Under the pieces are notes generated by a model, which had not been told where the DNA came from, searched no databases, and was given only the letters and a program-made list of their open reading frames with translations. The position numbers were made by a program, and so were the translations under genes. From contig JAKRSH010000043.1 in assembly GCA_022402465.1 (NCBI GenBank), forward strand, positions 310,001-374,000: a stretch of 64,000 bases of DNA, given 5' to 3'. The DNA is from Leptospiraceae bacterium (GTDB lineage: Bacteria > Spirochaetota > Leptospiria > Leptospirales > Leptospiraceae). Positions 36,346-41,222 of this stretch are shown piece by piece (position 1 is the stretch's first letter; the number at the start of each line of letters is the position of its first letter).

Positions 36346-38190
36346 TTAAGCCTCTTCAATCATTTCAATAATCTGTTCTTTAATTTTTGTATCTTTAGGA
36401 TATTCTAAACTAAGTATTCGATAACTTGGTTTAAATGAACCCTTTATAGAATCAACTGTCGGTTGGAAGTGATTCTTGATTTTCCTAATAACAATTTCCG
36501 ATTCTTCTTTATCTTTGGAATGAAGAATAGCTGTAAATTTGCCTTGACCAGCTCTCACGTAATGATCATTCTCTCCAAGGTGCTCTTGGATACTTTTACG
36601 TAAATTGTCGCAATATTCTGAGAATACATTCTGACCGAGCATTTGTATCATTCTTGGAATATTCTGCACCTTAAATACAATCACAGTAAAAGATATATTC
36701 AAAGATTTCGATTTTGAAATTTCAGAATCAATTCTATCCTCAATAGGGCTAAATGGATTGCTAAAAGAATTTTCTTTCTCCTCAAGAATAAGTATATTTG
36801 CAAAAACTGGTGAAGCTAATTCAAATAAACTTACTAATGATATCTTATAATCTTCTGTGAGTTTTTCTTTAGATTTATGGATGATAAATAAACCAACAAG
36901 CCAATTTAGATTTATCATAGGAATAATTGTAAACTCTTCAATTATTCCTAATTCATCATTGGAAATCAATGATTGCAATTCCATATTAGATTTAAAATCT
37001 TCAAGTTTATAAATGCCCATTACATTGGATACCATACCAACGATGTCAGAATTTCTTCCCATAATCAATTTAGCTGAAGTTTCTGGAGAAAATTGATTAG
37101 ATGTAAAAACTTTATAAGTATCCTTTTCTTTAGGGTCGAATAACATAAAAGTAAATCGTTCGATTTGATAATTTGTTTTAAGAACTTGGATTAAGATGTC
37201 ATAAGCTTGGTCAATTTTTCTAACACTAGCAAATTCTCTTGAAACATTTAATATACCATCGTTGAGGGATATAATCTTATTAAGATATTTTATTTCTTTG
37301 CTTCGTGCTTCGTAATCGCTTACTCTTTCAAAAACAGAGGCAGCAATATCAGCCATTACCTTTACAAATTCGAGATCATCAGAAATATATTCTTCTTCCG
37401 ATATCAACTTACCTAATATTATAATTCCATAAAATTGAGTTAAAGTTTTTATTGGCACAATCACTTCCGCTTGCATAGCTTGGAGAATTGCCTTCTCATT
37501 AGATCCTAGTCCCATTCCCATCAATTCTTGGGCATAAATAACTGATTCTTGTTGTTTAAGAATAGAGTAGATAGGATCTTCATTCGATATAAGCCAATCT
37601 TCAGTAGGTTCAAAACCTTGTGATTCAATTAAAAAGAATTTTGAATAATCATTCTTCGTGGTTGAAAAAATGGCTAGAGTTTCAGCGCCAATTTGCCCCA
37701 TTATCGAATAATTCAAGTTAGAAAAGAAATCATCAAAATTTGAAGAGGCACCTATTTCTTTGGTTATTTCAAAAATAGATTGGTAATTTTCAATTTTTTT
37801 CTTAGATGCTAAATGATATTCTATAGGTGCTGTTGTGAAATCAGATTCATCGTCAAATAGATATTCTTGTTTATCAAGATGTTCCTCTGTAGAATCTTCC
37901 TTAATAGGTGTTTTTATAGAAGATTCACGTGCTTCATCTTCCCAAACTTCAAATTCATCAAGTACGGGTGGTTCATTAAGGTATTCATCCTTAAGCTGTT
38001 CATCCGATTCAATTAATTTTTCAGCCTTTGCAAGTAAGCCTTTTCTTTGAATGGGTTCTATCTTAGTGGATAAATTTTCATCGATAAAAGATTCTGCTTT
38101 TGCAAGTAAACTACTTCCAGAGGACGTAGAAGATTGTACATTCTGTCCTTTGGAGCTTGTGCTATCACTTGCCTTCTCTAAGAGGCCCAT
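36346..38190 (-). CDS. GAF-domain protein with degenerate GGDEF domain and LLxKA repeats
   Basis: Cytoplasmic protein of 614 residues, function unknown. The N-terminus has three related short motifs: GLLEKAS (2-8), SLLAKAESFI (about 27-36) and GLLAKAEKLI (about 51-60), separated by Ser-rich linker. An acidic region follows, then a GAF domain (about 145-295), a second GAF-like domain (about 310-470) and a C-terminal domain shaped like GGDEF (about 490-610), in which the catalytic signature is replaced by RAGQGKFTAIL, so cyclase activity is unlikely. It sits 2 bases after the acidic repeat gene and directly before the MBOAT gene. Confidence 0.8.
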   Translation of the reverse strand: MGLLEKASDSTSSKGQNVQSSTSSGSSLLAKAESFIDENLSTKIEPIQRKGLLAKAEKLIESDEQLKDEYLNEPPVLDEFEVWEDEARESSIKTPIKEDSTEEHLDKQEYLFDDESDFTTAPIEYHLASKKKIENYQSIFEITKEIGASSNFDDFFSNLNYSIMGQIGAETLAIFSTTKNDYSKFFLIESQGFEPTEDWLISNEDPIYSILKQQESVIYAQELMGMGLGSNEKAILQAMQAEVIVPIKTLTQFYGIIILGKLISEEEYISDDLEFVKVMADIAASVFERVSDYEARSKEIKYLNKIISLNDGILNVSREFASVRKIDQAYDILIQVLKTNYQIERFTFMLFDPKEKDTYKVFTSNQFSPETSAKLIMGRNSDIVGMVSNVMGIYKLEDFKSNMELQSLISNDELGIIEEFTIIPMINLNWLVGLFIIHKSKEKLTEDYKISLVSLFELASPVFANILILEEKENSFSNPFSPIEDRIDSEISKSKSLNISFTVIVFKVQNIPRMIQMLGQNVFSEYCDNLRKSIQEHLGENDHYVRAGQGKFTAILHSKDKEESEIVIRKIKNHFQPTVDSIKGSFKPSYRILSLEYPKDTKIKEQIIEMIEEA

Positions 38191-38192
38191 TA

Positions 38193-40913
38193 TTAAAGAC
38201 CAATTTCTTTCATCAATTTTTTATAAAGATCGAAATAATTTGATTTTGAAAACTCTCGAATCATATCATCAGGGAGATTTCCAAGTAAATTATCTAAGTA
38301 AGTAAGAACTTTTTTCTTATCCTCATTGGAAAGTTCATTCCCTTGAGAATCTTTGAATGATTCAGACTGCTCATCTTTACTGAGATCAGAAGTATCCAAT
38401 TCTTCCGCACTTTCTGATGGAGTAGATCTCATTTCTTCTAGAGGGGATAAACCTCCATCTACGGAATACTCATCAAGATCTATCATACTCTCATCTTCCA
38501 AATCATTAGGATCTAAGGAAGCTTTGAGATTGGATTCTAGAACAGGCTCACGATTATCATCAAAGGAAAGAGAATCTATATCTTCTAGATCTTCTCCAGG
38601 TGGAAGATCACCAATAATATCTGTTAGTTCTTCAGAGGTAAGTGCTATTGGCTCATCTTCATTTTCATCAATACCGAAATTTGGTGCTTCTTCTTCATCT
38701 GAAGAAATAGCTTCCGCAAAATCTGAATCTAGCTCATCAACCTCTTCATTGCTTTCATCGGTAAGATCAACTGATTCACCAAAATCTGCAATAGCAGGAA
38801 GTTCGTCCTCACCACCAAGAATATTTCCAAGCTCATCATCAGAAAGTGTAATACTTTCATCTTCTTCATCTGATGATTCATCGAAACCAAAATCAGAATT
38901 TTCTTCTTCACTAGGTTCAGATAATTTATCTACATCCTCAGATGAGACGTCACCGTCTTCTAAAGTAAACTCATCGAAATCAACTGAATCATCAGGTTCA
39001 GGTAGAGTGCTGAAATCATCTAAATCAGCACCTGACTCAACTTTAGATTCTTCTTTAAGCTCAGCAGAGCTGCTATCTTCCTCATCGAAGGCTGAAGAAA
39101 AATCTTCATCAAATCCAAAATCATCTTGTTTTTTGTCTGATTGAGCAAGTGAAGAGTGATCCTCTAAATCTTCAGCACTAAAGATATCAGCAGAATCCTC
39201 AGGTTCTGAAGTAATTGCAGATAATTCATCTATCGAAAGAGTTATAGGTTCATCGGCAGAAGCTTCATCATCTGTTAGATCGATACCACTTGCCAAATCA
39301 GAAAATTCATCATCTAACTCTGGTTCGGATTTATCCTCATCAGACCAAGCAATTTCTGAGTCATCTAAACTTGTATCAGGAAGTGTATCATCAAAGGCAG
39401 AACCAAGGACTTCTTCATCTCCGGTAATGTTAGAGAGTTCATCCATGGAAAGAGTAATTGGTTCATCTTCAGCATCATCATCAACTGTAAATACACTTTC
39501 TTCCTCTGATAAATCTTGATATTCAGAAGAATCTTCGTTAGGACTAGCATCATCAAAAGTAGCAATATTTTCCAGTTCGTCCATGGAAAGTGTGATGGGT
39601 TCGTCGGCTAATTCCTCTTCAGAAAAAATCGAACCTTCAACTTCTTCAAGGTCTTCACCTTCGACCTCAGTATTTATTTCAGCGTTTTCTTCAAAATCCG
39701 TAAAATCTATATCATCTGCAACATTAGTGGGTGGAGTCTCAAGATCCAAATCTAATGCTAAGTTCTCACTCTCGCTACCGACTTCACCCTCAGCCATAAT
39801 ATTTTGTAGCTCATCCATAGATAGGGCAATTGGTTCGTCGGACATATCTTCTTCATCTAATAGAGACGAATCAGAGGATTCTAATTCTTTCGAGGAGCTC
39901 AGTGGATCTATTGTTTCATCAAAAGCAATATCTAGATCTGTGGAGCCTAAATCAAGAAGACCTGCTTCCTTTTCATCTTCCTCATAGATATCCGTTCCAA
40001 GTATTTGATCCAATTCATCATCAGTATAATTCTTATCAGTTGAGTTTGAGTCTTCTGTTAATGAAGAAAATTCAGTATCGATTTCAGGGGAAGAATCAAG
40101 AGATTCCTCATCGATTTTAGTCATAGGAGCATTTACAATATTTTCAAGCTCATCCAAGGAGAGAGTAATAGGTTCATCTTCTGCATCTAAATCATCAAAA
40201 TTAAATTCAGAGTGAGATTCTTTGGATTCGAATTTAATGGGTGAGGAATCATCTTCCTCATTCACAATTTGATCGATTTTTTCATCTATCAAAGGATCAT
40301 CATCATCAATTTCTAAATCAAGGCTAAATTCACTTTCTATATTTTCTGATTCAGATGAAATGTTTGGAATTGATTTAGAGGATTTTTGGGGTTCTTCGAT
40401 ATCATTAAAAAGATCAGGAGCATCAAGTAAAATTTCTTCTTCCTCATCAGTAAAATCATTATTAGATTTTTTAACTTCTTTAGAACTCAACTGTTCTTCT
40501 TCAGGAAGCTCTTCATCAATTAAATCCAAGCCACTATCTAAATCCAAATCGAGGCTAGATGTATCATCAGGGTATTCATCTCCAGCACTAGATACCATAG
40601 AATCGAGTCCGATATCGTCGCTATTCATATTGAATTCAGAGTCATCACCATCTTCGGAAGAATTTGAATCACCTAAATCCAGGGAATCAGTTCCGAAGTC
40701 AAAATCATCGTTATTTTCACTTGTATCTAAAGTATTTATTTCATCAAGATCGGGAGGTTCCATACCAGGATCTAAACCAAAATCAAGTTCATCATTATTA
40801 CTTGCTGATAATGAATCATCATCTTCGAAATCAAACGCGAAAGAATCATCATCTAACACGGGTTCGAGATCCGAAAATTCATCTGGATTTAATTTGCCAG
40901 CTTTGTCAGCCAT
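38193..40913 (-). CDS. Large acidic repeat protein with (D/E)EPI(T/A)LSxDEL motifs
   Basis: Unrecognised 906-residue protein, very rich in Asp, Glu and Ser with few basic residues, with no signal peptide or membrane helix. Seven copies of a motif such as DEPITLSMDELENI are spread irregularly, encoded near 40146, 39808, 39571, 39433, 39221, 38830 and 38624; the last two vary (DESITLSDDELGNI, EPIALTSEELTDI). The acidic spacers between them differ in length and look disordered. The last 45 residues (from LSNEDKKKVLTYLDNLL to KLMKEIGL) form a compact, more balanced helical domain. The motifs may be docking peptides. Its codon and base pattern matches its neighbours. Confidence 0.85.
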   Translation of the reverse strand: MADKAGKLNPDEFSDLEPVLDDDSFAFDFEDDDSLSASNNDELDFGLDPGMEPPDLDEINTLDTSENNDDFDFGTDSLDLGDSNSSEDGDDSEFNMNSDDIGLDSMVSSAGDEYPDDTSSLDLDLDSGLDLIDEELPEEEQLSSKEVKKSNNDFTDEEEEILLDAPDLFNDIEEPQKSSKSIPNISSESENIESEFSLDLEIDDDDPLIDEKIDQIVNEEDDSSPIKFESKESHSEFNFDDLDAEDEPITLSLDELENIVNAPMTKIDEESLDSSPEIDTEFSSLTEDSNSTDKNYTDDELDQILGTDIYEEDEKEAGLLDLGSTDLDIAFDETIDPLSSSKELESSDSSLLDEEDMSDEPIALSMDELQNIMAEGEVGSESENLALDLDLETPPTNVADDIDFTDFEENAEINTEVEGEDLEEVEGSIFSEEELADEPITLSMDELENIATFDDASPNEDSSEYQDLSEEESVFTVDDDAEDEPITLSMDELSNITGDEEVLGSAFDDTLPDTSLDDSEIAWSDEDKSEPELDDEFSDLASGIDLTDDEASADEPITLSIDELSAITSEPEDSADIFSAEDLEDHSSLAQSDKKQDDFGFDEDFSSAFDEEDSSSAELKEESKVESGADLDDFSTLPEPDDSVDFDEFTLEDGDVSSEDVDKLSEPSEEENSDFGFDESSDEEDESITLSDDELGNILGGEDELPAIADFGESVDLTDESNEEVDELDSDFAEAISSDEEEAPNFGIDENEDEPIALTSEELTDIIGDLPPGEDLEDIDSLSFDDNREPVLESNLKASLDPNDLEDESMIDLDEYSVDGGLSPLEEMRSTPSESAEELDTSDLSKDEQSESFKDSQGNELSNEDKKKVLTYLDNLLGNLPDDMIREFSKSNYFDLYKKLMKEIGL

Positions 40914-40922
40914 TTTAAATTA

Positions 40923-41222
40923 TTACCTATCTCCCAAAATAATGACCTGACCATCAAAGATCTCGCCATTCAAATCATATTCTAAACTATGGGATTCCTT
41001 GTCAAAACCACCGGCCTTTTCGATTAGATATTTAAGTGTATCACCTTTTCTCATTTCGTAAATTCCAGGACGATTGACTCCATTCTTAATTTGTACATAA
41101 ATAAGTTCATTCTTACTAAGCTTATCTAATATGGGACGGTTTTCTTTTAAGAAAAATCCACCCACCACTAAAACTAGTAAAACTAGAACGAAATACAACC
41201 AAGATTTTGGAATAGAATGCAC
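40923..41222 (-). CDS. Membrane-anchored SLBB-domain protein
   Basis: Small protein of 99 residues with one N-terminal membrane helix (about 8-26) and one SLBB domain (about 40-98): VQIKNGVNRPGIYEMRKGDTLKYLIEKAGGF resembles the domain found in ComEA and polysaccharide export proteins. No helix-hairpin-helix DNA-binding part follows, so competence is less likely than an envelope or polymer-related role. The start is GTG with AAGGAG close upstream. It begins the five-gene set and lies 38 bases after atpC. Confidence 0.75.
   Translation of the reverse strand: MHSIPKSWLYFVLVLLVLVVGGFFLKENRPILDKLSKNELIYVQIKNGVNRPGIYEMRKGDTLKYLIEKAGGFDKESHSLEYDLNGEIFDGQVIILGDR

Follow-up and report, generated by a model that had tools for sequence, protein, structure and literature searches.

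PopZ-type polar scaffolds combine an acidic disordered linker, a helical C-terminal module and client-binding helices, and ChePep of the Campylobacterota carries a receiver domain. ChePep is a phylum-restricted, repeat-rich protein of chemotaxis and flagella, for which both the restriction and a phenotype have been described (PMC9665402). The HubP/FimV polar landmarks, which are linked to polar flagella, are very acidic in their cytoplasmic part and end in a small helical C-terminal domain, which in HubP binds an inactive GGDEF domain (PMC9061725, PMC12918733). In the flagellum itself, the EIDAL peptide of FliM binds CheY (PMC6946799).

The protein described here is encoded in the window, i.e., the whole stretch of 64,000 nucleotides that was analysed. 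Like HubP/FimV, it is very acidic, ends in a small helical domain and is probably linked to flagella, and the binding of an inactive GGDEF domain by HubP recalls the degenerate-GGDEF partner co-encoded with it. However, LysM had no Pfam match in the window scaffold, no hydrophobic segment (and hence no membrane span) is visible in its sequence, which is acidic along the full length, and a FimV/TPR C-terminal domain was found neither as a Pfam/NCBIfam match nor through a PDB relative by sequence or fold. HubP/FimV would seem, from its architecture, the nearest working analogy for a scaffold that is no member of that family and is probably cytoplasmic. ChePep is comparable in its phylum restriction and repeats, but the scaffold has no receiver (REC) domain, the window protein and its orthologues at loci L048 and L042 being without a REC match, and no sequence relation was seen. 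PopZ-type scaffolds have a similar make-up, but no sequence relation was found and the fold search was without matches. The window protein had no Pfam or NCBIfam match. Full similarity to a scaffold of described function, one of the refuting outcomes named by the first-pass annotation, made from the letters of the DNA, was not observed, as no known scaffold family was matched.

The scaffold protein, its motif and its C-terminal domain

The gene (38193-40913, minus strand), delineated by its open reading frame and its orthologues, encodes an acidic, mostly disordered protein of 906 aa with 319 D/E and 33 K/R by sequence count. Directly upstream lies a gene for a small membrane SLBB protein (40923-41222, minus strand), and at locus L042, too, the scaffold gene is preceded by an SLBB gene. 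The seven motif copies reported by the first-pass annotation were recovered and a degenerate eighth was added. The core I(T/A)L(S/T)x(D/E)EL starts at aa 249, 362, 440, 486, 557, 688 and 756, with an irregular spacing of 46-131 aa, and is preceded by DEP or DES in 7/7 copies. All copies lie on the minus strand, and each of the seven was found by both pattern and profile: motif 1, DEPITLSLDELENIVN (aa 246-261, 40131-40178); motif 2, DEPIALSMDELQNIMA (aa 359-374, 39792-39839); motif 3, DEPITLSMDELENIAT (aa 437-452, 39558-39605); motif 4, DEPITLSMDELSNITG (aa 483-498, 39420-39467); motif 5, DEPITLSIDELSAITS (aa 554-569, 39207-39254); motif 6, DESITLSDDELGNILG (aa 685-700, 38814-38861); and motif 7, DEPIALTSEELTDIIG (aa 753-768, 38610-38657). 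The eighth, YTDDELDQILG (aa 296-306, 39996-40028), is a weak profile match. In an AlphaFold2 model of the last 162 residues, the last motif forms a short helix with a pLDDT of about 81.

In a comparison of four orthologues from a single related genus, invariant positions made up 71% of the motifs, 80% of the C-terminal domain and 20% of the spacers, which bears out the contrast between conserved motif and drifting spacers drawn beforehand. Non-conservation in orthologues had been named in advance as the refuting outcome; instead, the motif was kept in about 140 orthologues whose remaining sequence drifts. When the window scaffold was shuffled, 0/2,000 shuffles held even one core copy. That this is simply an acidic protein of low complexity, whose repeat has no docking function, would suit its extreme composition and its variable length and copy number, but is very improbable in view of these shuffles, the unequal invariance, the phylum-wide conservation and the correlated loss described below; the conservation already contradicts it.

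The motif, counted with patterns and an 18-residue profile, has the consensus (D/E)(D/E)ExI(A/T)L(S/T)xDELxNIL. Among 200 distinct copies, L6 and E10 occurred in all, L11 in 199 and I14 in 176, figures partly imposed by the pattern with which the copies were found. Treponeme-type scaffolds (about 70, mostly 500-1,200 aa) usually have one nearly invariant copy, DDEKIALTGDELDNILNT or EDETIALTGDELDNILNT, and a few have two, with 1-11 copies per scaffold in the window's class. Copy number therefore varies within the phylum, from 1 to 11; most scaffolds have a single copy, and the window's lineage has multiplied the motif. Of the earlier proposal of a scaffold with seven docking sites for one partner, a scaffold with repeated docking peptides fits these observations, but seven sites are not essential, most of the phylum being single-copy.

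Outside the scaffold the motif profile had almost no matches (13 and 67 genomes), the exceptions being a copy within the GAF partner of genome G137 and another in a membrane-anchored GAF protein of family f19. The latter (L219:7885-10416 and L293:1414-3927) has an extracytoplasmic sensor part, a membrane span, an acidic region holding its one motif copy, EDEVIALNMDELSNI, and a GAF-type region, and is adjoined by an ArsR-type regulator. Divergent forms were also observed: Brachyspira-type scaffolds carry the variants ITQSDLDYAI, ISQLDLDFAI and ITQQDLDNAV, and those of f23 and f31 a looser variant, IIFLSEDDLIDGL, missed by the profile. More generally, f12, f13, f23, f31 and other flagellated families had no motif-profile match, and the members whose sequences were inspected showed only diverged look-alikes. 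One Brachyspira-type scaffold (L260; G118, 2205000-2212801, plus strand), whose gene adjoins fliL-fliM-fliY, is built of acidic repeats over a length of at least 2,599 aa. In addition to the motif and the C-terminal domain, treponeme scaffolds contain a short coiled coil and, near the N-terminus, a second conserved short peptide resembling YGVWVKxGP (L048, L047, L045, L237 and L292).

The compact C-terminal domain noted in the first pass comprises 44 residues (aa 863-906; 38196-38327, minus strand), as delimited by profile, alignment and model, and is phylum-wide. In the AlphaFold2 model, computed with 40 orthologous rows, it consists of three helices (fragment residues 119-135, 138-146 and 148-160) in a block with pLDDT of 86-91, and the stretch between it and the last motif is mostly below 60. 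The search across spirochaetes suggested earlier, for which the 55 C-terminal residues served as query at E <= 0.01, recovered the domain, nearly always once, in 288 of 393 genomes, which cover 145 of 168 genera. Many of these genomes are metagenome assemblies, so that absence from a single genome means little, and the patterns given here rest on several genomes. Seven residues (D23, L25, L29, P30, F37, S40 and Y46) were invariant in an alignment of 21 phylum-wide rows. The domain had no PDB relative by sequence and no fold-search match, and weak matches taken as candidate paralogues within its own genome (L007-L009) were dismissed as chance. Named records bearing it are Treponema putidum, an assembly of T. 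denticola, Breznakiella homolactica and Gracilinema caldarium. Because alignment A1 was too diverse, the contig scan was made with A2, and treponemes therefore predominate among the named loci. The domain also occurs in what we take, from gene order, to be a T. pallidum-type genome; the text of the published T. pallidum interactome does not mention TP0179-TP0182, numbers that we guessed from gene order.

Partner gene, flagellar neighbours and losses

A partner of 614 aa with a GAF-type region and a degenerate GGDEF domain starts 2 bp past the scaffold gene (36346-38190). It has an N-terminal motif, GLLEKA (38170-38187), further copies of it, SLLAKA (38095-38112) and GLLAKA (38023-38040), a GAF-type region (aa 127-286, 37333-37812), where an NCBIfam DgcA match fell well short of the model's cut-off, and a GGDEF-like domain (aa 483-608, 36367-36744), all on the minus strand. 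The signature of this last domain reads RAGQGKF in the window, and GG(D/E)EF was found in 0/138 of the downstream ORFs examined. The AlphaFold2 model of the partner, with distant rows only, had a pLDDT of 43 and was of too low a quality to be interpreted. One partner, in G133 (L040:9972-12899), has about nine GLMHRAEQ-type motif copies, several of them in a regular 19-aa tandem array. In 16 treponeme-group genomes (L046, L057, L067-L078, L109 and L112), the MGLLxKA start and the GAF part lie in different frames, joined within the first 40-150 nt of the gene at a run of 9-10 A, e.g., CAA AAA AAA AAG, a site of the A AAA AAG type, with a -1 shift in 14 and an A9 run with another shift in two. 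From its sequence, this A9-A10 run looks like a site of programmed frameshifting or transcriptional slippage, which would yield a short and a long product.

A partner start of the MGL(L)xKA type lies within 120 bases of the scaffold stop in 126/141 readable loci, often with an overlap of 1-2 bases. This adjacency, the joint loss of partner and motif in three genomes without normal flagellar genes, and the motif copies inside the G137 partner and the f19 GAF protein would suit a two-part sensor scaffold in which the motif docks the co-encoded partner. However, G245, G037 and G002 retain the motif although their adjacent partner is missing or cut to 43 aa (a partner absent from this position may lie elsewhere in the genome), about ten treponemes keep it with Maf directly after the scaffold gene, and the copy numbers of scaffold motifs and partner GLLxKA motifs are uncorrelated (Spearman -0.08, n = 25), on which count a pairing of the two was rejected. 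We consider this arrangement improbable.

The flagellar genes nearby, like the partner and the FliM resemblance, were missing from the first-pass annotation, whose interpretation is supported in part. In families f3-f6, which belong to the window's class, the scaffold gene is followed by the GAF partner gene, a gene for an uncharacterised protein and then fliM; in ten loci/genomes, the distance to this downstream fliM, which has the same orientation, is 2.5-2.9 kb. An apparently exported protein of about 350 aa is uncharacterised and without a Pfam match (L218:6251-7303, minus strand; L041:11699-12763, plus strand); in the window's genome its gene immediately precedes fliM, and in related families it separates fliM from the GAF partner. 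In f19, f29 and f36 (3 genomes), fliS lies directly upstream of the scaffold gene, and f19 and f36 have a FapA-type gene after the partner. The scaffold gene of a Brachyspira-type genome sits beside fliL-fliM-fliY, with one opposite-strand gene between, and that of one Treponema about 7-9 kb from a motA-motB-fliL-fliM-fliY cluster. In treponemes, two MptE-like/Maf genes, which encode flagellin glycosyltransferases, lie downstream of the scaffold gene; in the window's class, the Maf genes are on contigs other than the scaffold's.

FliM was present in 337/393 genomes. The 36 genomes of family f49, presumably Sphaerochaeta-like as named from their missing flagella, had neither FliM nor a credible C-terminal domain. 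Moreover, G362 and G371 are without FliM, FliG and Maf, and G237 is without FliM and Maf and has a divergent FliG; in these three, the scaffold has shrunk to 206-212 aa, with the coiled coil and C-terminal domain kept, no motif genome-wide by profile search and no GAF partner in the scaffold neighbourhood. Flagellated relatives (G308, G244 and G297) have long scaffolds with GFFDEEEDETIALTGDELDNILNTADFTEE-type motifs and also keep the GAF partner. Conversely, the flagellated, Maf-positive G245 keeps the motif, the YGVW peptide and the Maf genes but has no typical C-terminal domain and no adjacent GAF gene. Thus, the motif tracks flagella (and Maf), whereas the C-terminal domain does not, and the two were lost independently of each other. 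As side observations, the short protein of G237 still has YGVWIKSGP despite the loss of its motif, and the genus to which it belongs (G149, G265, G317 and G237) has only very divergent FliM/FliG matches and no Maf where tested, so that its flagella are possibly degenerate or unusual.

Since the motif is gone when flagella are lost, this protein of nearly all flagellated spirochaetes outside the Borrelia group has the look of a hub of their flagellum that has so far gone undescribed, and we hold with considerable confidence that it is a flagellum-linked scaffold. It is also conceivable that motif and C-terminal domain of the scaffold bind each other, the repeats driving self-assembly into a condensate or meshwork: these are its most conserved parts, and multivalent repeats with a small domain would be, by analogy, typical of self-assembling scaffolds. 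This is nevertheless quite unlikely, because the domain exists without the motif (G362, G371 and G237) and the motif without the typical domain (G245), and the model of the last 162 residues has no docking of the last motif on the domain (pTM 0.32).

The association with Maf admits another explanation, the chief rival to our preferred reading, namely that the motif docks Maf-type flagellin glycosyltransferases (or flagellin with FliS) on a scaffold for glycosylation of flagellin before export, without any mimicry of FliM. The two Maf genes follow the treponeme scaffold gene directly, in several cases with no GAF gene between, all flagellated motif-bearing genomes tested have Maf, G245 keeps its motif and two Maf genes in spite of its other losses, and fliS adjoins the scaffold gene in the three genomes above. 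Furthermore, Borrelia-like genomes (f38) have FliM and FliG but no Maf, no C-terminal domain and no motif, which points to glycosylation rather than the switch. On the other hand, Borrelia is one reductive lineage and counts as one evolutionary event, Maf lies on other contigs in the window's class although fliM adjoins the scaffold gene in related families, and the FliM-like sequence is left unexplained. On balance, we regard docking of Maf as rather unlikely.

Resemblance of the motif to the FliM/FliN N-terminus

The N-terminal peptide of FliM/FliN/FliY (LSQDEIDALL, with EIDAL) has the same residue order as the motif, i.e., hydrophobic, S/T cap, x, D/E, D/E, I/L, D, x, hydrophobic, L, and is likewise a short helix in a flagellar context, encoded next door in several lineages. 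The spirochaete FliM N-terminus reads MTEILSQDEIDALLSAIS and FliN-type peptides LSQDDIDALL; the motif fits the core L-S/T-x-D/E-D/E-I/L-D-x-L/I-L, position 7 being D in 91/200 copies and otherwise often G, N, E or S. The Q that follows S/T in FliM is not usual in the motif, which has G, D, E, P, A or M instead; only Brachyspira-type copies and rare others have it. In addition, the peptide is a free N-terminus in FliM but is internal, often repeated and preceded by (D/E)(D/E)ExI in the scaffold, which has no FliM or SPOA domain.

When sites were scored by a FliM/FliN matrix, the motif was the best site in 121/140 scaffolds and scored just below real FliM/FliN peptides. Only six sites in a background of 366 proteins (129,804 residues) scored as high as 26, and four of these were FliM/FliN. 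Helix-cap sites other than those of FliM (692 proteins, 240,635 residues) had a mean of 10.2 (s.d. 7.5), compared with a motif median of 24.4, a difference whose p-value of 2e-30 ignores shared ancestry and is not usable as such; the top-scoring background helix-cap site was FliY itself. A likeness to the motif of this degree was thus, in the background, essentially confined to the N-termini of FliM, FliN and FliY. Permutations of the treponeme motif LTGDELDNIL reached its own score in 6/20,000 cases. Shuffled whole scaffolds (20 shuffles per protein) reached the FliM score in 55/140, because D, E, L, I and S abound in the scaffolds. Composition is therefore a partial explanation of the likeness, and the permutation and helix-cap controls argue for residue order rather than composition. 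The best PDB match to the motif was XPF, LSxxE-capped helices all being somewhat alike.

Whether the motif mimics the FliM peptide is, on this sequence likeness, a finely balanced question, to which we give a little less than even weight. If the motif imitates the FliM/FliN N-terminal peptide, it would therefore probably dock phospho-CheY, the MinD-like ATPase FlhG, or both; Shewanella FlhG reportedly also reads the FliM EIDAL peptide. Our preferred reading, in which we place just under even confidence, is a flagellum-linked scaffold whose repeats may act as FliM-N-like docking helices for CheY and/or FlhG.

Proposed working and significance

In our preferred reading, the conserved working part would be a short amphipathic helix imitating the FliM/FliN N-terminus, carried on acidic spacers that would serve as flexible, soluble linkers. 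One copy would be enough in most spirochaetes, and up to 11 in the window's class could act together as a multivalent buffer or hub. The three helices of the C-terminal domain, with which the treponeme coiled coil and the N-terminal YGVWVKxGP peptide may be grouped, would be a separate module, probably for self-association, oligomerisation or anchoring, and with a role beyond flagella. The GAF/degenerate-GGDEF protein would be a regulator that binds the scaffold at some site other than the motif. A bolder version, in which an undescribed flagellar hub of nearly all flagellated non-Borrelia spirochaetes uses 1-11 internal FliM-like peptides to capture CheY-P and/or FlhG away from the motor, is more doubtful, and we put it forward tentatively.

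How spirochaetes coordinate motors at two opposite ends, and how they set the placement and count of their flagella, is an open question, on which this conserved protein without annotation, with its ties to fliM, fliS and Maf and its FliM-like peptides that are lost together with flagella, offers a direct handle. Orthologues occur in genomes of T. denticola and of the T. pallidum type, none of those scanned has a family assignment, and the motif is a clean, separable module for biochemistry. If the bolder version is true, the window's lineage would possess a multivalent buffer that tunes switching, or flagellar number, at both cell ends.
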